Source of the DNA: Paenibacillus marchantiae
GTDB taxonomy: Bacteria > Bacillota > Bacilli > Paenibacillales > Paenibacillaceae
Assembly (NCBI RefSeq): GCF_028771845.1
Contig: NZ_CP118270.1
Location: 2,108,001 to 2,172,000 of the forward strand
DNA length: 64,000 nt
Direction: 5' to 3'
A program made the translations under genes and the position numbers. The stretch's first letter is position 1; each line of letters opens with the position of its first letter. This document shows, one piece after another, positions 38,889 through 54,842 of this stretch. The notes beneath the pieces were generated by a model that was not told the origin of the DNA, searched no databases, and worked only from the letters and a program-made list of their open reading frames with translations.

Positions 38889-41800
38889 ATGAGAAGACAA
38901 TTACTTGTTCTAATTGGTATGGTCGGCGTTTTTGCTGGAGCGACCTCAATCTTTATCTATGAATGGCTTCATCCCAACGTGCACTATCCGGAGGCGAGGG
39001 AAGGCGTACTGGATGCCAGACAGTGGGATTTTGCTGAACAGGGGATCATCCCGCTTCGCGGGGAATGGGAATTCTACAAGGATCAACTGCTGACACCCAG
39101 CGACTTCGCCAATCGGGGCGCGAATCAGCAACTAAAACCGCACATTCTTCCTGTTCCCGGAGGATGGAAGGGAGAAGTGTCGGAAAGCGGCTATGGTGCG
39201 GGGACGTACCGTCTGCGACTGTTGGTAAACGATCCCGAGGATTATGGACTTAGAGCCAAAAAGATTCGGATGGCGAGTCGTATTTATATGGAAGACGAGG
39301 AGCTTGGCGGTACTGGACAACCCGGATTATCGGCAGCCGAATTTGTGCCCAGCAATTTTCCGTTCTTTGGAATGATCAAGTCCGAAGACCGGACCATTGA
39401 GATTCTTGTCCAGGTGTCGAGCTATCGGTACTTGCAAGGTGGACTTGTGCAAGCACCTGAGTTTGGACTGGCAACGGATGTTATGACCCGGCGGGACAAT
39501 GCCCGAATGGCTGACGTCATCGTTATCACCACGTTGTTCGTTTTTGGCATTTATTTTGCAGGCATGTTCAGGCAATGGCGGCGGGAGCCTTATCTAATTT
39601 TCTTTAGCTTGTTCTGTCTGACACTAGGATTGTTTTTCAGCATCGACAACGAGATCGTTATGGCGACTCTGTTTCCCTCGATGTCGTTTCTGCTGCTGCA
39701 GAAGCTGCTCTTCATTCTTCCGTATCTGGCGATCATGTTCTTCATTCACTATGTACGCATTTATCTAAACGAGAGAAGCGGATATTTGTTCAGGGGAGTT
39801 CGCTGGTTTTCCTATGTGTATCTGGTTTTACTGATTGGGTTTCCCAATGATCACCTTTTGTATCTGTTGTGGCCTGGCGTATTTTTGCAGATAGTGGCCT
39901 TCGGGTTTATCTTTGCTTCAATTTTTCGCAATCGCCATCACGGGGTCAGAATTTACTATATTTTGCTTGGTGTGTTCTTTTTGATTATTAGTTGGATTTT
40001 CGCACTGACCCGTTATCAATTGGCGCTGGACAGCCCGTATTACATCATCGTTACGCTACTGCTAGTCGTGTTGTCACAATCATTCCTGATGGGGGACCGG
40101 ATTCGTGAGGCTCTCCTGCGCAGTGAACGCCTGGCTGATCAATTGCTTATCTATGACCGGCAAAAAGATGAGTTTCTGGCCAAAACGTCGCATGAGCTTC
40201 GCACGCCTTTACATGGTATCATCAATCTGTCTGAAGCCCTGCTGGAGAATAAAGAAGCACCGCTTGCAGCGGAGCATCGTGAGAACGTCAGGTTGCTTCA
40301 CCTGATCGGAAGGCGACTTGCCGGACTGGTGAATGACATCCTTGATATGAATCGGATTCGGTACGGTCAACTCTCCGTGCAAACGAAACCTGTAGACCTT
40401 TACATATCAACCGATTTTGTTATGGAGACCTTATCGATCTCGCCCGTTAAGAGCGGAGTCAGGCTTGTAAATGAGCTGCCTCCCAATCTACCTCTTATCA
40501 TGGCTGATGAGAACCGGCTTCGGCAGATTTTGCATAATTTGTTGGAGAACGGATTGAAGTATACGGATCGTGGAACGGTCTCCATCTCAGCGGAGAGAAG
40601 GGCTAATATGCTGGCGATATCCGTTAGCGACACCGGAAGGGGTATTCCTCCGGAGATCATGGACGACCTGTTTCAGACGTTCTTTCAATATAATGAGCAG
40701 GGTGCGCATTCGCGGGGCGGTATTGGACTGGGGCTTGGCATATCGAAGCAACTTGTCGAGTTGCAGAGCGGACATATGCAGATAGAGTCTGAGGTCGGCA
40801 AAGGTTCCAGGTTTACATTCATGTTGCCAATTGCACGGCGCGGGGAGAACCAGGTGGCGGCCACTATTGAATACGCTGGACATAACGAGTATAAGAATTA
40901 TACGGAGTGTGAGGCACATATCAAGCCTGAAGAGAACCCAGCGCTGCTCCCTAGGGTTCAGCTAGCTGTGGAGGTGCCAGATGAGGCGCTCCATATTCTG
41001 ATTGTCGACGATGAACCCTCCAATCTGAAGGTCGCCATGGACGTGGCAGCTTCCATGGGGTACACGTATACGGCTGTGGGAGGCGGCGAAGAGGCACTGG
41101 GGGTGTTAAGGCGCAAGAAGCCGGACCTTGTTCTACTCGACCTGATGATGCCCGGCGTATCGGGATTGGACATCTGTAAGGACATCCGGTCGATTCACGG
41201 GCTGGCTGAGCTTCCGGTGCTGATGCTGACCGCTTCGGGGCAGACGGGGGATATTCTGGCAGCCTTTGCAGCAGGGGCCAATGATATTGTGCAGAAGCCT
41301 TTTGAGCTGGCAGAACTTAGAGCACGAGTGCAATCGCTTCTGGCGATGAAAAGCTCCTCTGAGCAGGCGGTACGCCGGGAGATGGACTTTTTGCAGGCCC
41401 AGATTCCGCCGCATTTTCTGTACAATAGCCTAAATGCACTAGTTGGGCTCAGCTATAAGGACGTGGACAAGCTGCGGGAAACGATCCACCATTTGACCAC
41501 CTATCTCCGCTCCAAGTTCACATTTATCTTCCAGGGTGATGCAGTACCGTTAGAGAGGGAACTGGAATTGGTACGCGCCTACCTTGCCATTGAGCAGCTT
41601 CGCTTCGGTCAACGGCTGAACGTGAGCTACACAATCGATGAAGATGCGCACGGTATGGTGCCCCCACTTACCCTCCAGCCTATAGTCGAAAATGCCGTCC
41701 GTCACGGGATCGGACAGAAGCCTGAAGGAGGGACCGTGAACATTATTGTCACCCGTAGCATTAACGGTGTGGAGATCGTTGTCGAGGATGACGGGGGTGG

Positions 41801-41990
41801 AATGGACGAACAAACGCTAAGATTACTGGAGCAAGGCAAGACTGGGGGAATCGGCATTGGTAATGTGAACCGCAGGCTACAAATGAGATACGGGCGGACT
41901 CTGGAGATTCATAGTCGCTTGGGCGAAGGAACCCGAATTACAATTTACTTGACGGAGGAGCCTTATGTGGAAAGCCATTCTGATCGATGA
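38889..41990 (+). CDS. Hybrid sensor kinase with two kinase modules and a REC domain
   Basis: The 1033-residue membrane protein contains, in order: an N-terminal anchor, an extracytoplasmic 7TMR-DISM-like sensor part (about 30-200), seven transmembrane helices (about 205-400), HisKA with His435 (SHELRTPLHG), an HATPase with Asn554 (ENGLKYTD) and DTGRGIPPE, a receiver domain (VDDEPSN about 705, phospho-acceptor Asp751 in LLDLMMPG, KPF), and a second LytS-type kinase with His842 (IPPHFLYNSL) and a second HATPase (ENAVRHG about 935, DDGGGM). The second kinase probably phosphorylates the response regulator encoded next, whose gene overlaps by 26 nt. The signal sensed is unknown; carbohydrate-like ligands are possible for DISM sensors. 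Confidence 0.93.
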   Translation: MRRQLLVLIGMVGVFAGATSIFIYEWLHPNVHYPEAREGVLDARQWDFAEQGIIPLRGEWEFYKDQLLTPSDFANRGANQQLKPHILPVPGGWKGEVSESGYGAGTYRLRLLVNDPEDYGLRAKKIRMASRIYMEDEELGGTGQPGLSAAEFVPSNFPFFGMIKSEDRTIEILVQVSSYRYLQGGLVQAPEFGLATDVMTRRDNARMADVIVITTLFVFGIYFAGMFRQWRREPYLIFFSLFCLTLGLFFSIDNEIVMATLFPSMSFLLLQKLLFILPYLAIMFFIHYVRIYLNERSGYLFRGVRWFSYVYLVLLIGFPNDHLLYLLWPGVFLQIVAFGFIFASIFRNRHHGVRIYYILLGVFFLIISWIFALTRYQLALDSPYYIIVTLLLVVLSQSFLMGDRIREALLRSERLADQLLIYDRQKDEFLAKTSHELRTPLHGIINLSEALLENKEAPLAAEHRENVRLLHLIGRRLAGLVNDILDMNRIRYGQLSVQTKPVDLYISTDFVMETLSISPVKSGVRLVNELPPNLPLIMADENRLRQILHNLLENGLKYTDRGTVSISAERRANMLAISVSDTGRGIPPEIMDDLFQTFFQYNEQGAHSRGGIGLGLGISKQLVELQSGHMQIESEVGKGSRFTFMLPIARRGENQVAATIEYAGHNEYKNYTECEAHIKPEENPALLPRVQLAVEVPDEALHILIVDDEPSNLKVAMDVAASMGYTYTAVGGGEEALGVLRRKKPDLVLLDLMMPGVSGLDICKDIRSIHGLAELPVLMLTASGQTGDILAAFAAGANDIVQKPFELAELRARVQSLLAMKSSSEQAVRREMDFLQAQIPPHFLYNSLNALVGLSYKDVDKLRETIHHLTTYLRSKFTFIFQGDAVPLERELELVRAYLAIEQLRFGQRLNVSYTIDEDAHGMVPPLTLQPIVENAVRHGIGQKPEGGTVNIIVTRSINGVEIVVEDDGGGMDEQTLRLLEQGKTGGIGIGNVNRRLQMRYGRTLEIHSRLGEGTRITIYLTEEPYVESHSDR

Positions 41991-43068
41991 TGAAGAGATC
42001 GCGCTTGACGTCATGGATATTATGCTGGCCGAAGTTGGCGGTGTGAAGGTTGTCGGCAGGTTTCAGCTGGTCGCCGAAGCGCTCGAACAATGTGGCGCGC
42101 TGCAGCCGGATTTAATCTTTTTGGATATCGAAATGCCTGGAGTAAGCGGGCTGGAGGTTGCGGAGGAGATCACTGCGTGCTTTCCCTTTGCTAAGATCGT
42201 TTTTGTAACGGCACATGATCAGTATGCGATTGATGCGTATGACACCGACGCCATCGGATATTTGCTTAAACCGGTCGCCAAGGACAAGCTGGCCAGGACA
42301 CTGCACCGTTATTCCAATCTCCAGGCCAAAAATCGGATTCTAAGTAGCAGTCCTCTAGATCTTGACAGGGGAGTTGCCAACGTTGGTTCAAGCGAATTGG
42401 ACACTGTCGTTGAAGGTAAGGTATTGCTTTCGCTTAAAGTACTAGGCAGCATGGAGCTGTATGCTGCAAACGGAAGGCTATTAACGTGGAGGACCAAGAA
42501 AACGAAGGAGTTATTCGCATTCCTCTGGCATCATCGCGGACAGCCCGTTTACAAATACGCCATATTGGAAAACTTATGGCCGAATGATGCGCCGGAGCGC
42601 GGGCAAAAATTGTTGCACACTTCCCTGTATTATTTGCGGAGTCTGTTTAAGTCGGTGGGCTATGGCGAAGTAGTAAGGTACGGCGACGAGCGCTACTGGA
42701 TTAATCCGGTGTTTATCCGAAGCGATCTTGAAGAGTTGCTTGGTCGAATGAAGAGGGGAGTTGCCGGAACCGAAGCCAAGGACATGCTTCATCTATATAG
42801 CGGCAATTACTTCGAGATGGAGCATTATGAATGGGCGGATACTTACCGAATCGAGTTGCGTTCCATCCTGATGTCCTACTTGACGAATGCTCTGAATGGG
42901 GCGACGAACGAGCCACGGATAGCGATGCTTCGAAAGCTGATCGATCTGGAGCCCAGTCGGGAGGGTTACTACGATCTACTCATTGACTCCTTGAGGCATG
43001 CGGGAGATCTGGGCGGAGTCGGAAATGTGCAGGCTTTGAAGAAGCGAATGCTGCTGGAGGAAAATTAG
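41965..43068 (+). CDS. Response regulator with REC, winged helix and BTAD domain
   Basis: The 367-residue protein has an N-terminal receiver domain (IDDEE, phospho-acceptor Asp54 in FLDIEMPG, Lys in LKPVAKD), a winged-helix DNA-binding part (about 145-225; RTKKTKELFAFLWHHRGQPVYKYAILENLWPND) and a bacterial transcriptional activation (BTAD) domain rich in TPR-like helices (about 235-365). This SARP/AfsR-like layout is an activator design. It overlaps the hybrid kinase gene and is the last gene before a terminator. Its likely targets include the dockerin and cohesin genes downstream and its own operon, which is an inference from position only. Confidence 0.92.
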   Translation: MWKAILIDDEEIALDVMDIMLAEVGGVKVVGRFQLVAEALEQCGALQPDLIFLDIEMPGVSGLEVAEEITACFPFAKIVFVTAHDQYAIDAYDTDAIGYLLKPVAKDKLARTLHRYSNLQAKNRILSSSPLDLDRGVANVGSSELDTVVEGKVLLSLKVLGSMELYAANGRLLTWRTKKTKELFAFLWHHRGQPVYKYAILENLWPNDAPERGQKLLHTSLYYLRSLFKSVGYGEVVRYGDERYWINPVFIRSDLEELLGRMKRGVAGTEAKDMLHLYSGNYFEMEHYEWADTYRIELRSILMSYLTNALNGATNEPRIAMLRKLIDLEPSREGYYDLLIDSLRHAGDLGGVGNVQALKKRMLLEEN

Positions 43069-43097: not shown

Positions 43098-43136
43098 ATG
43101 GGTCTTAAGGTTTACGCCTTTAGACCCTTTTTTTGT
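43098..43136 (+). terminator. Terminator after the two-component system
   Basis: GGGTCTTAAGG (from 43100) pairs with CCTTTAGACCC around a short loop, followed by seven T residues. Confidence 0.82.
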
Positions 43137-43266
43137 CGTTTTATGGGTGGAATGTTGTGAAAATGTTGAGAAGTAATTTGCTAGACTAATGCTGTTGATT
43201 GATAGATATCGGACAGCGGTCAACGGATTTGGGATGGGAGCAAAATGAGGGGGAGTGAAAGAAAAG

Positions 43267-45720
43267 ATGATGACATTCAGAAAATGGATCTCGGTGATAT
43301 TAGCGTTCCTAATAGTAGGAATGCTGGTTCCGCAGTATGCAATAGCCGAGTCGTCCGCATGGGAACTTCGAAGTCCTCTGCCGACGTCTCAGACGATGAA
43401 CACGGTGGCCTATGGAAATAACATCTTCGTGGCAGTGGGCGAGTATGGAACGATTGTTACTTCCACAGACGGTGTAAGCTGGGCGAGTCCCAAGAGCAAT
43501 ACGTTATTCACTTTGTATAGCGTTGTATATGGCAATGGGAGATTTGTGGCAGTGGGAAGCAGTGGAACGGTTCTCACCTCAACCGATGGAGTGACCTGGC
43601 AAAGTCAAAAGGTGGGGAATACCAATATGTTGAGTGTTACTTTTGGTGCCGGCAAATTTGTGGCAGTAGGAGAAGCGGGATTAATACTGCTGTCAAGTGA
43701 TGGTTCCACCTGGGTTAGCCAAACCAGTAGCGCAACGGGCTATCTCTGGGACGTAACCTATGGTGGAAACTGGTTTGTTGCTGTTGGTTTATCTGGTACG
43801 AGGATTGTCTCGAAAGATGGAGTGTCCTGGAAGGCGTACAACAGCACCAATGGAGATTCATATATCGGCGTGACTTATGGGAACAACCGCTTCGTGGCAG
43901 TTGATAACCAGGGAGCTATCGTATATTCGCAATCTATCTCGGATTCATCATGGACCTGGGCAATAGGCAAAAATAAAGGTAGTTCCGCTTCAGAGGGCTT
44001 TTCTGATGTCAGCTATGGCAACGGAAAGTTCGTGGCGGTAGGACATGGTGGTAAGGTGTACACTTCTTCCGATTCAGCCAGTAGCTGGCAAGTGCAGACT
44101 AGCGGCACGGGCAATAATCTTAACGGTGTTGTCTATGGCAGCAACAAATTTGTGGCAGTGGGCATTCGGGGAGCCCTCTTTAGCTCGGCAGATGGGACGA
44201 TATGGACGAATCGGCTTCAAGGCTCCAGGCAAGCCATCAGAGAAATTAGTTTCATTAATAACCATTTTGTAGCGGTCGGTCCTTACGGAGAGTTGTTTTC
44301 CTCTACAGACGGTACATTCTGGGACAGAAAATTGATCGACTCCTCCGTTGGTTTAACAAATATCGAGTATGGTAATGACACTTACGTAGGGGTGGGGTTT
44401 AATGGGGCACTCCTTACTTCGACGGACGGAACAGTCTGGGCAAACAGGGCGTCAACCTGGACAGATGCTATATATGGCTTGAGTTATGGGGCTGGGAAGT
44501 TTGTAGCGACAGGTAATGCCGGTAAAGTTTGGACTTCGGCTGACGGAGTAATCTGGGCCTCCATTACGAGTCCTACATCGAATACGCTAAATGATACGAT
44601 ATACGCACATGATCGGTTTGTGGCGGTGGGGGTGGGAGGAACGATTATAACTTCGCCTGACGGGGAGAACTGGACGCTCCAAACGAGCGGTTCCCAGGTG
44701 AATCTGAAAAAATTAAGCTACGGAAGTGGAAAGTTTGTGGCAGTTGGTGAGTCCGGGACAATCCTGACTTCTGTCAACGGAATGGATTGGGTCGTGCAAG
44801 CAAGCGGGACAGCGAACACGCTTAATGGCGTGGGTTACGGCAATGGAACTTTTATAGCGGCAGGAAAAAGTGGGTTACTCTTAACATCAACGAATGGTAC
44901 GAATTGGACAACTCAAGCGAGCGACAGGCAGGAAGAGCTTAACAGTGTAGGCTATGGTAACAATACCTTTGTGGTGGTTGGGCAAGATGGCATTATATTA
45001 AAGAAAATAGTGGAAGCAAACAGCATGATCAATCCGTTGGAGGAAAACTTCGACAAAAATACTACATCAGCGGGTTATGTCAATGTGAATGTTACGCTGA
45101 CGTTGAACGGAAACATGTTAACCGGTATTGATAATCAGGCATCCTTATTGACTGCAGGCGAGGACTACACAGTTAGCGGTAATATAGTTACCATCAAAAA
45201 GGCGTATCTAGCGACACAAGTAGTAGGGACGACAAGTCTGAATTTCACGTTCAGCGCAGGAACATCCCAGACGCTGGACATTTCAATTCGTGATACGACA
45301 CCGCAAGTTGCTACTGTCAGCTACGGATCAGGCGCTCATGGCACGATCAGCGGAACGAGTGAACAGGTGACAATTGGTGGGCATCCGGTGGCAGTTCCAA
45401 CAGTGACGCCTGCAAGCGGCTACCGATTTGCAGGATGGAGCAGTGACGGTGGAGTTACGAAGTTCAGCAGTCAGCAGGTAGCGGCTACTAAGATAACTGC
45501 GGATGTTACCTACACGGCGCATTACACGTCGTTTGTCATGGGTGACGCGGATGGGGATGGTGTAGTTACGCCTGCTGATGCGCTGTTGTTGACAATGCAT
45601 ATTAAGGGCAAGATCACGCTGACGCCGGAGCAGTTGCAAGCGCTCGATATGAATGGCGACGGACAATGGGACGAAGCGGATATAAAAGCGATTCTCGCCA
45701 TTGCCGCAGGAAAGGGCTGA
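43267..45720 (+). CDS. Secreted propeller-repeat protein with X2 module and C-terminal dockerin
   Basis: After a signal peptide (about residues 1-27) come 14 repeats of about 40 residues (about 46-580) with the recurring motif FVAVG-xxG-xxxTSxDGxxW, consistent with two seven-bladed propellers. They are followed by an X2-like Ig module (about 581-675), a bacterial repeat of the InlB/Listeria-Bacteroides type (RFAGWSSDGG, about 682-754), and a dockerin (about 757-817) with two EF-hand-like loops, DADGDGVVTPAD and DMNGDGQWDEAD. Dockerins bind cohesins, and the next gene encodes an SLH-anchored cohesin protein, so this one is probably displayed on the cell surface. No catalytic domain was recognised. 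ATG 43267 is preferred over GTG 43255, with a G-rich SD (GGGGGAGTGA) about 8 nt upstream. Confidence 0.85.
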   Translation: MMTFRKWISVILAFLIVGMLVPQYAIAESSAWELRSPLPTSQTMNTVAYGNNIFVAVGEYGTIVTSTDGVSWASPKSNTLFTLYSVVYGNGRFVAVGSSGTVLTSTDGVTWQSQKVGNTNMLSVTFGAGKFVAVGEAGLILLSSDGSTWVSQTSSATGYLWDVTYGGNWFVAVGLSGTRIVSKDGVSWKAYNSTNGDSYIGVTYGNNRFVAVDNQGAIVYSQSISDSSWTWAIGKNKGSSASEGFSDVSYGNGKFVAVGHGGKVYTSSDSASSWQVQTSGTGNNLNGVVYGSNKFVAVGIRGALFSSADGTIWTNRLQGSRQAIREISFINNHFVAVGPYGELFSSTDGTFWDRKLIDSSVGLTNIEYGNDTYVGVGFNGALLTSTDGTVWANRASTWTDAIYGLSYGAGKFVATGNAGKVWTSADGVIWASITSPTSNTLNDTIYAHDRFVAVGVGGTIITSPDGENWTLQTSGSQVNLKKLSYGSGKFVAVGESGTILTSVNGMDWVVQASGTANTLNGVGYGNGTFIAAGKSGLLLTSTNGTNWTTQASDRQEELNSVGYGNNTFVVVGQDGIILKKIVEANSMINPLEENFDKNTTSAGYVNVNVTLTLNGNMLTGIDNQASLLTAGEDYTVSGNIVTIKKAYLATQVVGTTSLNFTFSAGTSQTLDISIRDTTPQVATVSYGSGAHGTISGTSEQVTIGGHPVAVPTVTPASGYRFAGWSSDGGVTKFSSQQVAATKITADVTYTAHYTSFVMGDADGDGVVTPADALLLTMHIKGKITLTPEQLQALDMNGDGQWDEADIKAILAIAAGKG

Positions 45721-45724
45721 TTTT

Positions 45725-48637
45725 ATGCTTTGGAAGAGATTAATATCGATTTTACTGACGGTTAGTATGATCTTGCCTTTTGGTACGTTTGTCAGCGCTG
45801 GTGCACCAGCTTCTAACTCGATGAAGGTGAGTGGTGGTGAAGGCTACCCTGGAGATACCGTTGACGTGGAGGTATACCTGATACCGAATCTTATCATCAA
45901 CGAATACGATATTTCGATTGGTTTTGACACTTCTTCGTTGGAACTTGTGACTGGAAATGAAATTACGAATAATCTAGGTGTGAGTTCAAATGGAGATAGC
46001 TTCAATTCGGATTTCTCCAGTGATGGGACTATCAATGTACAAGCTGATCTGGTGAACTACTCGATTTTTGATGAAGCGAAGGTATTCACTCTTCATTTCA
46101 AGATCAAGGATACCGCACAGCCTGGGGAACTGACGCTGAGTGTACCTACGCACAATCTCTATGAAGGGGGGACACTTTCGTCGACAACGGTTGAAATGGG
46201 CAAAATTCAGGTTAATGCTGTAAAGCATACTGTGGCGTTTGATGCACAGGGAGGTAGCGCCGTTGGCAGCATTACAGATGTAAGCAGCGGCACAACGATC
46301 AGTGAGCCGCCAGCGCCGACAAAGGCCGGTTATACCTTCGCAGGCTGGTTCAAGGAGGAAGCAGGCACGAATGTCTGGAACTTCGCAACAGATAGGGTAA
46401 CGTCCGATGTGACGCTATACGCAACATGGACGGCTGTTCAGTTGGCACAATATACCGTTACGTTCGATTCAAAGGGAGGCAGCGTTATTGACAGCACTGC
46501 CAATGTGAGTAGTGGAACGACGATTAGCGAACCGCCAGCGCCGACGAAGGCCGGTTATACCTTTGCAGGCTGGTTCAAAGAAGAAGCAGGCACAAATTCC
46601 TGGAACTTCGAAACGGATATGGTAACGTCCGATGTGATGCTATACGCAACATGGAAGCGTCATGCAGCAGAGATTCAGATCGGCTCGGTGAGCGGAACGC
46701 CCGGAACTACGGTAAAAGTACCTGTCTCCGTAGCCAACTCAACATATGGAATCGGAGCCTATGGAATACAAATTGATTTTGATACAGAAGCGTTGGAAGT
46801 AACGAAGATTGAAGGGGAAACGGGCAATAACTTCGACTCCAACTTCGATAACGTAGCAGGTTGGTTGAAAGCGATGTGGGCAGACAGCGATGCAGGTGAC
46901 ACACCGATTGCATCGGGAGAAAAACTGTTCACCGTCAGCTTCAAGATCAAAAGTGGAGCAACAACAGGGAGCAAGAAATTAACAGTAGAAACGGAAGAAT
47001 TGAGCCATTTCTCCATAGCTAACTCGTTCGCGGTTGGAATGGAAAAAACACTGATGCCTGGTAAGGTTACGGTTAATGATGGACCGGTGCAATACACAGT
47101 GACGTATGATTCGCAGGGAGGTAGCACAGTTCCTGGGCTTACCCAGGTGAACAGTGGCACCACGATAAGTGCTCCGACAGAACCAACAAAGGTTGGCTTT
47201 ATGTTTGCGGGATGGTATAAGGAAGTAGCGGTAACGAATGTGTGGAACTTCGCAACGGATAAAGTAATATCTGATGTGACGTTATACGCAAAGTGGACGA
47301 GTAGTACTTCCAACAATTCAAATAACTCTGGTGCGCCTTCAACAAACTCAAGCACAACAACAGTTGAGAAACCTGCTGGTCTGCAAATCATCGTCGATGG
47401 TGTCTTGAAAGATCAGATTGCGACAGGTTCCCTCACTAAAGAGAACGGTAAGACTGTACTGAGGGTCACAGTCGATCAAGCCAAACTGGTTGATCAGCTG
47501 AAGCAAGCAGCAGACAAGTCCACCGTAGTCATTCCCGTGACTACTAATGTGGAAAAGGTATCGGTGGTATTGACTGGCGATGCTGTGAAGAGCATGGAAA
47601 CCAAGCAAGCCGTTTTGGAGGTTCAAACGCCAGGCGGAATCTACAAACTTCCTGCAGGGCAAATAGCCATCGACAAGATTTCCTCGACACTTGGGATACA
47701 GGTCAAACTGTCCGACATTGTCGTTCGTGTAGAGATTGCCAAGAGTGATGAGGCTACGGTCCTTCTTGCAGAGAAGGCAGCTGTTCAAGGAAACTATGCT
47801 GTTGTAGCTCCACCAGTCACTTTTAATGTAACGGCTTCCTACAATGGCAAAACGGTAAACGTAGAACAATTCAGCAGTTATGTGGAACGAGAAATTCCAC
47901 TTCCCGCAGGTCTTAATCCAAGCAGGGTGACAACGGCTACGGTGCTCAATCCAGACGGCAGTGTTCGTCATGTGCCTACGTTCATCACGACTAGAGAAGG
48001 GAAATATTATGCGGTCGTGAACAGCCTTACCAATAGCGACTACTCGCTGATTTGGCATCCAAAGACATTCGCGGATGTAGAAGGTCATTGGTCGAAACAG
48101 GCTGTAAACGATATGGCTTCACGAATGATCATCAAGGGGATAGATGAGAATCATTACAATCCGAATGCGGTCATTACACGGGCGGAATTCGCAGCGATTA
48201 TGGTGCGCGCGCTGGGATTGGCCGACAATGGAAGCCAAACCACATTCATAGATGTGAAGTCCAGCGAATGGTATGCAGGAGCTGTTGCGAAGGCTGTGGA
48301 ATACGGTTTGATCGAAGGCTACCAGAACCAGACATTTGCGCCTGCTCAGACGATTAGTCGTCAGGAAGCATTGGTGATTATGTCCCGGGCAATGAAACTC
48401 ACATCGATTGAAACGGAAGGGGCAGATGTGGAGTCTGTGCTATCTCCGTTTGCAGATCAGACGGCGATTTCTTCTTGGGCCAAGTCGGCAGTAGCCTCAG
48501 CTGTGAATAACGGACTTGTGGAGGGCTCAGAAGAAGGTTTGATGCCGACAGGCAAGCTTACTCGGGCCGAAACTGCGGCGATTGTTCAGAGACTTTTGAT
48601 CAAGGCCAAGTTGATCAATAACGGCGATTCTATCTAA
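45725..48637 (+). CDS. SLH-anchored scaffold with two cohesin-like modules and B-repeats
   Basis: The 970-residue protein begins with a signal peptide. Modules in order: cohesin-like domain 1 (about 33-160; SGGEGYPGDTVDVEVYL, FDTSSLELV), two InlB-type B-repeats (about 167-235 and 243-310; KAGYTFAGWFKEE), cohesin-like domain 2 (about 316-452; SVSGTPGTTVKVPVSV, IDFDTEALEV), a third B-repeat (about 457-523), a Ser/Asn-rich linker, a beta-rich region (545-780), and three SLH domains at the end with ITRAE, ISRQE and LTRAE motifs that bind pyruvylated wall polymer. It is thus a wall-bound receptor for dockerin proteins. It begins 4 nt after the dockerin gene stop, with SD AGGAAAGGG, so both are co-translated in one operon. 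Confidence 0.86.
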   Translation: MLWKRLISILLTVSMILPFGTFVSAGAPASNSMKVSGGEGYPGDTVDVEVYLIPNLIINEYDISIGFDTSSLELVTGNEITNNLGVSSNGDSFNSDFSSDGTINVQADLVNYSIFDEAKVFTLHFKIKDTAQPGELTLSVPTHNLYEGGTLSSTTVEMGKIQVNAVKHTVAFDAQGGSAVGSITDVSSGTTISEPPAPTKAGYTFAGWFKEEAGTNVWNFATDRVTSDVTLYATWTAVQLAQYTVTFDSKGGSVIDSTANVSSGTTISEPPAPTKAGYTFAGWFKEEAGTNSWNFETDMVTSDVMLYATWKRHAAEIQIGSVSGTPGTTVKVPVSVANSTYGIGAYGIQIDFDTEALEVTKIEGETGNNFDSNFDNVAGWLKAMWADSDAGDTPIASGEKLFTVSFKIKSGATTGSKKLTVETEELSHFSIANSFAVGMEKTLMPGKVTVNDGPVQYTVTYDSQGGSTVPGLTQVNSGTTISAPTEPTKVGFMFAGWYKEVAVTNVWNFATDKVISDVTLYAKWTSSTSNNSNNSGAPSTNSSTTTVEKPAGLQIIVDGVLKDQIATGSLTKENGKTVLRVTVDQAKLVDQLKQAADKSTVVIPVTTNVEKVSVVLTGDAVKSMETKQAVLEVQTPGGIYKLPAGQIAIDKISSTLGIQVKLSDIVVRVEIAKSDEATVLLAEKAAVQGNYAVVAPPVTFNVTASYNGKTVNVEQFSSYVEREIPLPAGLNPSRVTTATVLNPDGSVRHVPTFITTREGKYYAVVNSLTNSDYSLIWHPKTFADVEGHWSKQAVNDMASRMIIKGIDENHYNPNAVITRAEFAAIMVRALGLADNGSQTTFIDVKSSEWYAGAVAKAVEYGLIEGYQNQTFAPAQTISRQEALVIMSRAMKLTSIETEGADVESVLSPFADQTAISSWAKSAVASAVNNGLVEGSEEGLMPTGKLTRAETAAIVQRLLIKAKLINNGDSI
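46226..46658 (+). repeat. Tandem B-repeat DNA, 225-bp period
   Basis: Copies at about 46226-46433 and 46451-46658 encode adjacent B-repeats and are near-identical over long stretches (for example the CCAGCGCCGAC-AAGGCCGGTT region). The preserved DNA identity points to a recent in-frame duplication inside the gene. A third copy, more diverged, lies near 47085-47295. Confidence 0.7.
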
Positions 48638-48935: not shown

Positions 48936-50690
48936 ATGGTCGTTTTTTTCAAGAAACGTTTGGTTGTTCGCATTGTTGCCATTGTTACATTGGTCATTGT
49001 GATTATATCTGCGGGAAGCATGCTGCTTCAGCTGGCGAATATGAAGCTAGCCGCGCAGGAGGCCATATCGAGTTATAATATTCAAATTGCCGAGAGTTAT
49101 GTGAAACAGCTGGATGCAGAGCCGTATGTGGAATTTGCCAAAGATCCCAAGGAAAATGACGCATTCTTGAAGATTTGTAATGAGCTGGATGATTTTCGTG
49201 TGAGCATCGGTGCGATGTATGTGTATTTTGTAAAAATAGATGATACAGGCACACCTCTCATTATGGTGGACGGCATGAAAGATGCAGATAAAGCATCACC
49301 GATCAATGAAGTGACGGATATCCCAGGTGATGCAGTCCAAAAGCTCCTGCAAGGGAAAACAGCCAGTTCCCCTATCATTCATAATGAGGAGTATGGTGAA
49401 TATATTTCCTCATACGCTCCGATTTTGGACAGTAATGGAGCTTTGACAGGTGTGATTGGAATTGATACGGCTGTGTCGGTCATTGGAAGTATTGAGTCAG
49501 ATATTATGAAATCCAGCATTCCGCTGTATGCCCTGTTATTATTCATTACGCTTGCAGGCATCGCGGTTGTATTGTGGTTCATCGTAAGAGGCCTGCGACC
49601 GCTGAAACCGTTGAAGGCAAGCGTCGAACAAATGGCGCAAGGTGAGCTGGCGGAAGCTAACCGAATCCTGACAGCCTATCGGCTGCAGAGTGAGGATGAG
49701 ATTGGCAGCACATTCAAGGCGATGATTCATATGTCTGGGGACTTAAATAAAATGATCGGCGACATGGTCGAGGGTGTTTCGGTAACCACTGATATTCTCG
49801 CGGAATCAACGGAGCAATTCAATCGTGATGCAGAAGACATGCTTGAGATGAATAAGAGCGTTGACCAGTCCGTGCAGCAGATCAGACAGGGAGCACATAC
49901 CCAGAAGCAAGGTGCTAGCGACAGCGCTAATGCGATGGAAGAGATCGCAAAAGGCATTACCGATATTTCAGAGTCCTCTACAGCCGTGTCCGACGCTGCA
50001 ACAACTGCACTTGCTACGGCACAATCAGGTAAGCAGAGCATGACGCAAATGAAGAAACAGATGGAGAGCATTTCGGCTGTATCTGCTGAAGTTGTAGCCA
50101 TGGTCCAAGTGCTTAACAACTTCTCGCAGCAAATCGGTGGTGCGCTTCATACGGTGCGGGATTTTGCGAGTCAGACCAAGCTGCTGGCGCTGAATGCTTC
50201 AATTGAAGCCGCTCATGCAGGGGAGCATGGGAAGGGATTTGCCGTTGTAGCGGATGAAGTACGAAAATTGGCGGAGGCTTCAAGCACATCTGTGCAGACG
50301 ATATCCGATTTGTTGCTCGGTATTCAGAAGGAGTCCCAGCATATCGGATCACAGATGGATGTTACCTCGCAAGAGATCGGCCAGGGGGTGACGAGCACAG
50401 CAGAAGCAGAGCTTGCCTTCACGCATATGGTTGAGGCGTTTCGTGTGGTGACACGCCGTATCCAGGAGGTTTCCGCAGCAGCGGAAGAGATATCGGCGGG
50501 TTCCGAGGAAGCGGCAGCATCGGTCAACACCATCTCGCAAATTTCATCCGGCGTTTCAGATCATTCAGATGACATTTATCGCTTAACAGGGGAGCAGTCG
50601 AGCATGTTCCAGAAGGTGGCACAAACGTCCACGCTGCTGAGGCAGCAAACGATTGAGATGAGCGAAGCTGTAAGAAAAGTAAAGGTATGA
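48936..50690 (+). CDS. Methyl-accepting chemotaxis protein with Cache-type sensor
   Basis: The 584-residue chemoreceptor has a first transmembrane helix (about 8-30), an extracytoplasmic Cache-like domain (about 35-190; [27 protein letters not shown] and [18 protein letters not shown]), a second transmembrane helix (about 192-215), HAMP (about 215-270) and a long cytoplasmic signalling coiled coil with the hairpin tip [34 protein letters not shown]. It reports ligands to CheA/CheW. AGGAAGAGG precedes the ATG by 5-6 nt. It follows the surface-protein operon but is separated by a terminator; a functional link, such as sensing polysaccharide products, is speculative. Confidence 0.94.
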
Positions 50691-51558: not shown

Positions 51559-52326
51559 TTATAGGCGATTGAGCTGTGTGGAATACAAATTATTGCGATA
51601 TTCGGTGGGTGTATTGCCTTCGTATTGTTTGAACATGCGCAGGAAAAGTTTGTAATCCGAAAAACCGCATTGCCCCGCAATTTCTTTCACACTGGCATTG
51701 GTATTGAGCAGCATCTGCTTGGCCCGGCGAATCCGTTCCGTGAGGATATAGGTTTTGAGCCCAATGCCTTTCTCACGTTTTACCATTTTGGAGATATAGT
51801 CCTTGTTAAAATTAAAAGTCTCGGCAATCTTACCAACCGTAATGTCGGTATGCAGATGAATATCCACCCACTTGCAGATGTGGTCAACGATCGCATTGTG
51901 CGGTCGATAACCCGCCTGTGTATTGCGTTCCAGTTCTTTGAGCAGCAGCAGCAATGCCGCGTCTGCTTCTTCCGGTGAGAACGATGAACTATGCAGCAAT
52001 TGCTTGAACAGCTGATTGGCGGTGGACGGAACCTGAATAGTCGCATGGGTGGGATACTGGTCGAACTCTTTCTCAATCGAATCATAATGAACCCAGTAGA
52101 AGCTGACGGGAGCATCGCTAACCTGATAGCCGTAATGGGTGCGTCCAGCTCTCAGAAACAGCAGATCATTTGCACGAATCACGAACTGCTCGTCCTCCTC
52201 CGCAATGTACATCTCGCCTTCCAACATCAAAATGACCTCGTGAACAGGCATGCTGCGCTTCATGTGGCTCCAATTACCTTCGGTTATGAACTTGCCGCAC
52301 AGGTAATGTTCCAATGGCTTTTGCAT
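51559..52326 (-). CDS. AraC-family regulator, likely controls the arabinofuranosidase gene
   Basis: The 255-residue regulator has an N-terminal cupin-like effector domain (about 10-140; VHEVILMLEGEMYIAEEDEQFVIRANDLLFLRAGRTHYGY) and a C-terminal AraC helix-turn-helix pair (about 155-250; TVGKIAETFNFNKDYISKMVKREKGIGLKTYI, then NASVKEIAGQCGFSDYKLFLRMFKQYEGNTPTEYR). It is divergent from the GH127 gene with 194 bp between them, the usual layout for a local sugar-responsive activator. ATG 52326 has AAGGTGGAG upstream on the minus strand; a longer frame upstream lacks an SD. Confidence 0.91.
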   Translation of the reverse strand: MQKPLEHYLCGKFITEGNWSHMKRSMPVHEVILMLEGEMYIAEEDEQFVIRANDLLFLRAGRTHYGYQVSDAPVSFYWVHYDSIEKEFDQYPTHATIQVPSTANQLFKQLLHSSSFSPEEADAALLLLLKELERNTQAGYRPHNAIVDHICKWVDIHLHTDITVGKIAETFNFNKDYISKMVKREKGIGLKTYILTERIRRAKQMLLNTNASVKEIAGQCGFSDYKLFLRMFKQYEGNTPTEYRNNLYSTQLNRL

Positions 52327-52441
52327 AGGACGGATTTCTCCACCTTTTCTTGGATTATGAGTCTGATGTAGTTGTATTTTATTTGATAATATGAGGATAT
52401 TCAAGGCCTGTATGAAGAAAGTTCGTAAGGGACACATGAAT

Positions 52442-52470
52442 TTCAACACGGATTTTACCCTTTGTACAAT
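52442..52470 (+). promoter_or_regulatory. Promoter of the GH127 gene
   Basis: TTCAAC (52442-52447), a 17-bp spacer and TACAAT (52465-52470), about 50 nt upstream of the ATG. The weak -35 box suits activator control. Confidence 0.5.
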
Positions 52471-52520: not shown

Positions 52521-54842
52521 ATGATTGAAACCAAAACGGGATTTCTGGGACCGGAGCATGTAGATCTGTTAAATGGCGTTTTTCAAACGTCACAGGAAGT
52601 TGGAGAAAAGTATTTGTTATCACTGGACATTGATCGTTTTCTGGCACCATGTTTTGAGGCCCATGGGTTATCGGCGAAAAAGGAACGATACGCGGGTTGG
52701 GAGGCACGCTCGATTAGCGGACATTCCCTCGGACACTATCTGTCTGCCCTGGCTGTGACCTATCAGGCGACAGGTAATGAAACGTTAAAGCAAACGCTGG
52801 ACTATGCCATCAACGAGCTTGCATCCATTCAGCTGACAACGGGCAGCGGGTATGTCGGCGGCTTGTCCGAAGAAGCTTTCCGTATTGCATTTCGGGCAGA
52901 GCATATTGGTGGTTTTAACATCGGCGAATACTGGGTGCCTTGGTACAGCGTGCACAAAATCTATCGTGGTCTGACTGATGCCTACAAATTAACGGGCAAT
53001 CAACAAGCCCTTGAGGTGGTAACACGGTTTGCTGATTGGGCGGTGGACGGTCTAAGCCCGATGACAGAAGAACAGATGCAGGTCATGCTTCTATGTGAAC
53101 ACGGCGGTATGAACGAAGTGTTTGCACATTTGTATGGAATCACCGGGAAATCTTTATATCTTGAGATAGCCAACAAATTCACACATCAATTGATCCTCGA
53201 ACCGTTGGAACACAAGCAGGACGATCTTCAGGGCAAACATGCGAATACGCAGATTCCCAAAGTCATCGGTGCAGCCGAAATCTATAACCAGGATCATAAC
53301 CACGAGAGCTACCGGACAGCGGCGGAGTTTTTCTGGGATACCACGATCCATCATCGGTCTTATGTATTTGGTGCAACGAGCATTTCGGAGCATTATGAAG
53401 CGAAAGGCATGGAGAGTCTGGGCATTAAAACCGGAGAGAGTTGCTGTACCCACAACATGATGCATCTGACGAAGCAGCTCTACACCTGGAATCCCGACAG
53501 CGCATACATGGACTATTATGAAAATGCGATCTACAACCATATCCTGGGCACACAGGACCCGGACACAGGCAACAAAACGTATTTTGCATCAACACTGCAA
53601 GGCCACTACAAAATCTACGGTACTCACGATACCGCCTGGTGGTGCTGTACAGGATCTGGCATGGAGAACCCGGGCAAATACGCCGAGGCGATCTATTTCG
53701 AGGATGAGCAGGATCTGTACGTTAACCTGTATATTGCTTCCCAGTTGGACTGGAGATCCCAAGGCATATCGCTGAAGCTCGAAACCGACTTTCCTTATTC
53801 GGAAAAGGTAACCCTTACGATCACCGAAGGCAGCGCCTCGGCCAATCTTAGACTACGTGTGCCCTCATGGCTGCAGGAGCCAATGACGGCAACGGTCAAC
53901 GGGGATACGGCCCATCCGCATACCCGGATGGAACCCGGATACCTCGACATCGAGCGTACATGGACCGCTGGCGATGTCATCACCATCACGCTGCCGATGT
54001 CGCTCCACCAATACACGTCCAGGGACGATGCACACAAGGTGGCATTCCAGTACGGCCCAATTGTACTGGCAGGGGCTCTGGGAAGCGAAGGGCTGCCCGA
54101 GGATACCATCGTGGACGAAACGGCACTGAACCCCAAAACCGCACCTGTACCTGTAATTTGGACAGAGCAGGAGGATGTGCGTGAATGGATCAAGGTTGTA
54201 GACGCAAGTACGTTAACGTTTGAGATCAGCAAGGATGTCACCTCGGACGGCAATCCGGTGAGGCTGATCCCGTTCTATGATGTGCATCATGAGTTCTATA
54301 CGGTCTATTGGCCGTTCAACGATGAAGGGAATGCACTGGAGAAGGAATTGAATGATATCACCATCGACAGGGTGCAACCTGACGGTCAGCAGGATGAGAT
54401 TGGACATCAACTGGATAGCAATTGCCGTGCAGAACAGCATAACGGTTCATATACAGACAGCCGCAACAAGCTGCATATGTGGCGAGAAGCATATGGTGTC
54501 AGCGGGGCTTACTTCAGCTACCAGCTGGCGGTGGATGGTTCTGCACCGAACTATGTATGCGTGGCATACTGGGGCGGGGATCATTCTCCTTTTGAACGGG
54601 AAGGAACACGGCATGAAAGAATATTTAGTATCGCCGTCGATGGAAATGTGATCGGTGAACAGCGGATTCATATGAACAAGATCGGTGAAGTGTTCTTCGT
54701 TACCTATGACATCCCTCAGACGGTTACGTCAGGTAAAGACAGTGTGCGAGTTGCATTCCAAGCGTTGGACGACAACGGATGTGCCGGAAAAGTGGTGGAG
54801 GTACGTACAACGCGCAGCAAACCGGAATCTATCTTTTCGTAA
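52521..54842 (+). CDS. GH127 beta-L-arabinofuranosidase
   Basis: The 773-residue protein belongs to family GH127 (formerly DUF1680). It has an N-terminal (alpha/alpha)6-like barrel with GHSLGHYLSALA, GEYWVPWYSVHKIYRGL and LLCEHGGMNEVF, then the active-site cysteine region: Glu306 and Cys308-Cys309 in GESCCTHNMM and Cys375-Cys376 in WWCCTGSGMEN, corresponding to the zinc-thiolate centre and nucleophilic cysteine of HypBA1-type enzymes. C-terminal beta domains follow. There is no signal peptide, so it acts in the cytoplasm on imported arabino-oligosaccharides. AGGAGGAG lies upstream of the ATG. The AraC gene opposite is the likely regulator. No arabinose transporter is adjacent. Confidence 0.93.
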   Translation: MIETKTGFLGPEHVDLLNGVFQTSQEVGEKYLLSLDIDRFLAPCFEAHGLSAKKERYAGWEARSISGHSLGHYLSALAVTYQATGNETLKQTLDYAINELASIQLTTGSGYVGGLSEEAFRIAFRAEHIGGFNIGEYWVPWYSVHKIYRGLTDAYKLTGNQQALEVVTRFADWAVDGLSPMTEEQMQVMLLCEHGGMNEVFAHLYGITGKSLYLEIANKFTHQLILEPLEHKQDDLQGKHANTQIPKVIGAAEIYNQDHNHESYRTAAEFFWDTTIHHRSYVFGATSISEHYEAKGMESLGIKTGESCCTHNMMHLTKQLYTWNPDSAYMDYYENAIYNHILGTQDPDTGNKTYFASTLQGHYKIYGTHDTAWWCCTGSGMENPGKYAEAIYFEDEQDLYVNLYIASQLDWRSQGISLKLETDFPYSEKVTLTITEGSASANLRLRVPSWLQEPMTATVNGDTAHPHTRMEPGYLDIERTWTAGDVITITLPMSLHQYTSRDDAHKVAFQYGPIVLAGALGSEGLPEDTIVDETALNPKTAPVPVIWTEQEDVREWIKVVDASTLTFEISKDVTSDGNPVRLIPFYDVHHEFYTVYWPFNDEGNALEKELNDITIDRVQPDGQQDEIGHQLDSNCRAEQHNGSYTDSRNKLHMWREAYGVSGAYFSYQLAVDGSAPNYVCVAYWGGDHSPFEREGTRHERIFSIAVDGNVIGEQRIHMNKIGEVFFVTYDIPQTVTSGKDSVRVAFQALDDNGCAGKVVEVRTTRSKPESIFS

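Follow-up and report, generated by a model that had tools for sequence, protein, structure and literature searches.

The window (the whole stretch of Paenibacillus marchantiae DNA that was analysed, 64,000 nucleotides long) contains four genes, all on the forward strand, that encode a sensor kinase, a response regulator, a secreted dockerin-bearing passenger and a cohesin-bearing cell-wall anchor. The kinase gene (38889-41990) specifies a 1033-aa 7TMR-DISM hybrid histidine kinase, assigned from Pfam, an ectodomain model and its place in a cohesin-linked kinase clade. Pfam gives its architecture as an ectodomain (~aa 30-200), a 7TM region, HisKA + HATPase, REC, and His_kinase with a second ATPase; the 7TMR-DISM module scores 41.8 bits against a cut-off of 29, which identifies a 7TMR-DISM receptor. 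This genome has two 7TMR-DISM genes, one of which adjoins the passenger/anchor pair. The ectodomain has no Pfam (DISMED) match, and its model, with a mean pLDDT of only 62, resembles GH2 sugar-binding jelly rolls (1.9e-4), which makes a carbohydrate cue plausible for this kinase. The response regulator (41965-43068) combines REC (Pfam, 7.7e-21) with a predicted OmpR-like winged helix and BTAD/SARP-like C-terminus; its Trans_reg_C match (0.0012, 19.3 bits) lies below the cut-off of 26.2, and a paralogue at locus L074 matches BTAD at 1.8e-14.

A hairpin resembling an intrinsic terminator occurs in the sequence between the regulator and passenger genes (43100-43134) and is retained in relatives with different stem sequences. 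Downstream of it lie an 11-bp direct repeat, AATGTTGTGAA-AATGTTGAGAA (43151-43172), which is a putative regulator site conserved at L075, L076, L088, L097 and L156, and a -10-like hexamer, TAGACT (43182-43187), which follows the repeat at a near-constant distance in an alignment of upstream regions and is a consensus assignment only. The exact repeat occurs once in the genome; the next best sites have 3 mismatches and are no more numerous than in the control. A sigma-70 promoter scan gave no signal above shuffles, and an Rfam search of the window matched nothing. Direct repeats of this kind are typical of OmpR/SARP regulators, so the 11-bp repeats fit the predicted output domain of the regulator, itself a weak match, and the passenger promoter has the form of a SARP/OmpR-type target to which the regulator putatively binds.

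The passenger gene (43267-45720; ORF and Pfam) is best started at ATG 43267 because GTG 43255 overlaps its ribosome-binding site. A signal-peptide-like N-terminus is followed by a head of 14 blade-like repeats of ~39 aa (43396-45024), a CBM_X2 module (45028-45282; Pfam 1.2e-23), a B-repeat (Flg_new_2, 45313-45528; Pfam 1.3e-8) and a C-terminal type I dockerin (45541-45687; Pfam Dockerin_1 4e-10), which scores 40.2 bits against a cut-off of 22.9 and has both calcium loops of this duplicated calcium-loop module. The propeller family DUF6242 matches the passenger above its Pfam cut-off (6.1e-12). AlphaFold2, run with eight relatives, predicts 14 four-stranded blades with pLDDT mostly 70-95, which correspond to two seven-bladed propellers, as do the blade list and Foldseek; the model is poor over the X2, B-repeat and dockerin parts.

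Four nucleotides separate the passenger stop (45720) from the ATG of the anchor gene (45725-48637; ORF and Pfam). Pfam matches the anchor to Cohesin (1.9e-22, two stretches), Flg_new (2.3e-61, three) and SLH (6.7e-32, three), and finds no CBM3 in it. Its cohesins (45821-46144 and 46670-46993) were recovered in a genome search at 1.6e-9 and 1.4e-16, respectively, the second also through PDB cohesins; they reach 80.4 bits against a cut-off of 24.1 and match the solved cohesins 6kg8, 6kgc and 4uyp. Three Flg_new B-repeats (46226-46432, 46451-46660 and 47093-47302) are supported by Pfam and by a profile built in this analysis. The three SLH motifs (48056-48610), which also resemble structures of the S-layer protein Sap, identify an SLH-anchored surface protein. 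Directly before them lies a 240-aa module (47336-48055) that has no Pfam family; a profile built here shows it to be conserved in most anchors (L065-L100) and also elsewhere among the family's SLH proteins.

Dockerin-cohesin pairing and the passenger head

Throughout the genome (6.98 Mb, one contig) there are one Dockerin_1 match and two Cohesin matches, all at 43267-48637. The original prediction had described a passenger with propeller repeats, X2, B-repeat and dockerin next to an SLH-anchored protein with two cohesin-like modules, and had proposed profile searches for the dockerin, cohesin, X2 and SLH families together with a genome-wide search for other dockerin genes. Both ORFs are in place, every family was recovered above its Pfam cut-off, and the only Dockerin_1 in the genome is the passenger's own. 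A cellulosome is ruled out because passenger and anchor carry the genome's only dockerin and cohesins: a single dockerin, on a protein without an enzyme family, and two cohesins with no CBM3. On its domain content, the pair at 43267-48637 is a genuine non-cellulosomal cohesin-dockerin system with a putative internal pairing. Cohesins occur in 191 of 297 sampled genomes of the family and in 33 of 250 of the class.

Passenger dockerin and anchor cohesins correspond to opposite halves of the same solved complexes (6kgc, chains A/B, and 4uyp, chains A/B). Pairing between them has indirect support from gene adjacency, from Rosetta-stone fusions and from head swaps in which dockerin and anchor stay together. 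Dockerin and cohesin distances correlate in a mirror-tree comparison (r 0.83-0.85), with a partial r of 0.55 that is slightly above the 0.46 of the SLH control; mirror-tree was dropped as proof of pairing because the correlation barely exceeds that control.

Sequence searches, Pfam among them, assign no enzyme family to the passenger. In none of 20 dockerin proteins of related loci is a catalytic family the best assignment; the enzymatic-sounding names above cut-off are SGL (L081, under a much stronger NHL) and DPPIV_N (L099), both propeller-shaped families. A propeller family is matched directly in 11 of the 20, in some weakly, and 3 more are sequence relatives of such proteins; the remainder have Ig-like or beta-helix modules. 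The head is most likely an exchangeable, non-catalytic binding module for a glycan or protein ligand.

Foldseek of the head returns tandem propellers generally, with the highly repetitive propeller 2ymu and AIP1 as best matches. The GH74 xyloglucanases 2cn3 and 6p2l, which likewise have two seven-bladed propellers, appear lower among the matches, and CBM_X2 is a frequent neighbour of glycoside hydrolases; the head could thus be an unrecognised enzyme, such as a GH74-like tandem propeller, that would turn the pair into a one-enzyme mini-cellulosome. We regard this as improbable. GH74 enzymes and the predicted head have the tandem-propeller shape in common, but the head does not match the GH74 sequence family, identity to 2cn3 and 6p2l is just 12%, and many non-enzymatic tandem propellers outscore them. 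The lack of an enzyme family in sequence searches also argues against catalysis, as do the occupation of equivalent head positions by NHL, Rax2/Kelch-like or Ig proteins and the uniformity of the blades, which have no evident special pair. A further alternative is that the anchor works as a general socket, capturing the dockerin proteins that other bacteria make, with its own passenger being incidental. Two cohesins for one dockerin gene would suit such scavenging, which has been proposed for P. guangzhouensis (PMC11557425), but the dockerin gene lies next to the cohesin gene, the two are apparently co-transcribed, and both are conserved along with the promoter repeat; we give a scavenging socket very little credence. 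A passenger held by its own anchor, with a probably non-catalytic head, is the preferred reading.

Recurrence of the four genes and exchange of heads

Across 60 genomes of the genus there are 54 cohesin genes, and 42 of them have a dockerin within 2.5 kb. A 7TMR-DISM kinase lies within 9 kb of a cohesin gene in 15 of the 54 cases, against 0.54 expected from uniform placement in these genomes. Two-cohesin pairs, at loci read with a profile built in this analysis, have the kinase in 14 of 18 cases; the exceptions are L070, L077, L224 and L225, and it is also missing from the swapped-head locus L086. Two of these kinase-less loci have an OmpR-type pair instead. One-cohesin pairs with an internal dockerin have no such kinase. 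The genes occur in two orders, kinase-regulator-dockerin-cohesin as in P. marchantiae and dockerin-cohesin-kinase-regulator. In a tree of 53 kinases, built by a quick method and with long branches flagged, the cohesin side has 26 members, of which 22 are cohesin-linked, and the other clade has 27, none of which is. Three of the four unlinked kinases on the cohesin side adjoin an SLH surface protein, which at L234 carries a propeller in the same chain. Kinase, regulator, passenger and anchor are a recurring unit in Paenibacillaceae.

Repeats with an 11-bp period recur in the corresponding promoters. This period is present in 15 of the 34 upstream regions, compared with 0 to 3 for other periods and 0.9 (maximum 4) in Markov shuffles. 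Such repeats lie upstream of 22 of 39 dockerin genes, as against 26 of 677 other genes. The corresponding Fisher p (2e-18) overstates the significance, since related loci cannot count as independent samples, but at least five sequence classes agree. Other promoter classes have the same period with other sequences (GTTCAGAATnG, TTTTTAAGGTT, TGTTcAGTGAT/TGTTaAGAG and CTGAAATGATA).

Heads are exchanged while the remainder of the unit is kept. The P. dokdonensis locus L156 matches ours in kinase (78%), regulator (67%) and anchor (69%) and retains the B-repeat and dockerin, with an unrelated head. At L086, from another genus, anchor (67-77%) and dockerin (83-87%) are similar to ours and the head is at chance level (24-26%). 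The swap junction lies at the B-repeat. X2 was ruled out as an essential part of the unit, being missing from L086, L088 and L156. Our propeller family is also joined to SLH in a single chain in P. qinlingensis, P. flagellatus, P. baekrokdamisoli, P. endophyticus and P. turicensis, with Pfam support for two of these chains (L135 and L142), and L078 and L231 have cohesin, NHL propeller and SLH in one chain beside a kinase-regulator pair without a dockerin gene. Docking thus appears to replace a covalent link, for which the fusions are the best evidence in this analysis.

A second class of pairs (L065-L069, L072, L073, L085 and L223) combines an internal-dockerin protein of 340-470 aa with a one-cohesin SLH anchor. 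An 11-bp repeat of the GTTCAGAAT type lies upstream in all nine, none has a 7TMR-DISM kinase, and a separate regulator/kinase pair lies downstream in five. Cohesin-free 7TMR-DISM hybrid kinase/regulator pairs occur near large SLH proteins at L222, L233, L234, L240, L242, L244, L245 and L246. Because many such pairs adjoin large SLH surface proteins, these kinases may be coupled to surface proteins beyond the cohesin-bearing ones. A methyl-accepting chemotaxis protein is encoded directly downstream of the anchor (48936-50690); it is 93% identical in L075 and is not shared with the other loci compared. It was rejected as a unit member, since only L075, the nearest relative, has the orthologue in place.

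Proposed mechanism and relation to known systems

The original prediction read the pair as a small complex on the cell surface whose passenger is not an enzyme. This much stands, given the sole dockerin/cohesin set in the genome, the absence of a catalytic family and the predicted two-propeller head; the adhesive or substrate-sensing role that it also put forward is a possible one. What it missed is the adjacent kinase and regulator, the promoter with its 11-bp repeat and the recurrence across the family. These three features suggest that sensing lies in the kinase and that the passenger-anchor pair is its output or a co-receptor. We think it fairly likely that the four genes make up one unit, a regulated surface-display device with an exchangeable, probably non-catalytic head and one cohesin-dockerin joint; the unit is probably a self-regulated form of surface display. 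The proposal draws on the observed domains, genome-wide uniqueness, unit recurrence, head swapping, fusions and repeat promoter, and from it we infer dockerin-cohesin binding, kinase-to-operon control and a ligand for the head. SLH motifs of the anchor would bind the cell wall, and the secreted passenger would be held through its dockerin by the anchor cohesins. Its propeller head would then be exposed outside the cell, in the place that enzymes fill in a cellulosome. The 7TMR-DISM kinase would sense an extracellular cue via its sugar-binding-like ectodomain and phosphorylate the SARP-like regulator, which would bind the direct repeat of 11-bp period before the passenger gene and turn on the passenger-anchor operon.

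Linkage of kinase and displayed head can be read in other ways. The docked propeller may be a ligand-presenting co-receptor, with head, dockerin, anchor and kinase ectodomain in one sensing complex, so that head exchange would reprogram what the kinase reports. This is possible though clearly not favoured: kinase and head are genetically linked in two gene orders, also where heads are covalently anchored (L078, L231 and L234), but the linkage is explained just as simply if the displayed head is the kinase's output. The kinase ectodomain is 72% identical to ours both in L156, with a swapped head, and in L076, with the same head, so it does not follow head type and a head-specific contact is not indicated. 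Equal similarity whichever head is present weakly suggests that the kinase is a controller rather than the head's partner. An extended version, in which interchangeable heads, one dockerin-cohesin joint and an anchor serving as kinase co-receptor form a modular extracellular sensing system, with the kinase setting the number of displayed heads through the repeat promoter, seems to us possible but not favoured; if true, a swap of nothing but the head segment could alter what a lineage senses. It is also conceivable that shared ancestry alone keeps kinase and regulator next to the passenger-anchor operon and that they exert no control over it, as the lack of the kinase at some pairs (L070, L077 and L086) and the unrelated genes beside other kinase paralogues would allow. 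This is unlikely, because the genes occur in two orders, the arrangement has persisted across deep lineages of the kinase and a conserved repeat stands immediately before the passenger; regulated display remains the preferred reading.

Cohesin and dockerin modules occur outside cellulosomes; the present case differs from such known modules in that the genes form a conserved unit, come with a regulatory pair of their own and occur with swappable heads and in fused versions. Cellulosomes with SLH-anchoring scaffoldins, for example in Clostridium thermocellum, likewise place a dockerin on the secreted passenger and cohesins on an SLH wall scaffold, whereas here the genome has a single dockerin, the passenger is a propeller without a glycoside hydrolase, there is no CBM3 scaffold, and the pair is linked to a 7TMR-DISM kinase. 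The cohesin-dockerin adaptors of P. guangzhouensis (PMC11557425) come from the same bacterial group and also involve SLH-anchoring scaffoldins; many proteins there combine cohesin, dockerin and enzyme, whereas our locus has one passenger and one anchor, a type that the adaptor-rich relative G041 also has (L097). XydS/R of Clostridium cellulolyticum (PMC3572039) is a two-component system that controls dockerin genes in a hemicellulase cluster. Control is likewise proposed here, with the difference that the candidate targets are a non-enzymatic passenger and an anchor and that a 7TMR-DISM hybrid kinase would act with a SARP-like regulator. No published description of a kinase-regulator-passenger-anchor unit was found in the literature searched, which covered few subscription papers.

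In Paenibacillaceae the cohesin-dockerin joint apparently serves as a general plug for binding heads that are not enzymes, and sister loci make the link covalently. This natural series of docked, half-fused and fused forms, together with a built-in regulatory pair, opens two questions to experiment in a tractable genus: what non-cellulosomal cohesins are for, and which signals 7TMR-DISM kinases receive. In genome G041 (L097/L098), at least 13 matches to cohesin and 21 to dockerin, some of them on one protein, accompany our propeller-type pair and kinase. A 236-aa dockerin protein with an RHS-like tail lies beside a 2076-aa RHS-repeat protein in G212 (L064:1037-8043), with no cohesin nearby. 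Within the window, a large ORF at 52521-54842, which we take to be a beta-L-arabinofuranosidase-type enzyme, adjoins a presumed AraC-type regulator (51559-52449).
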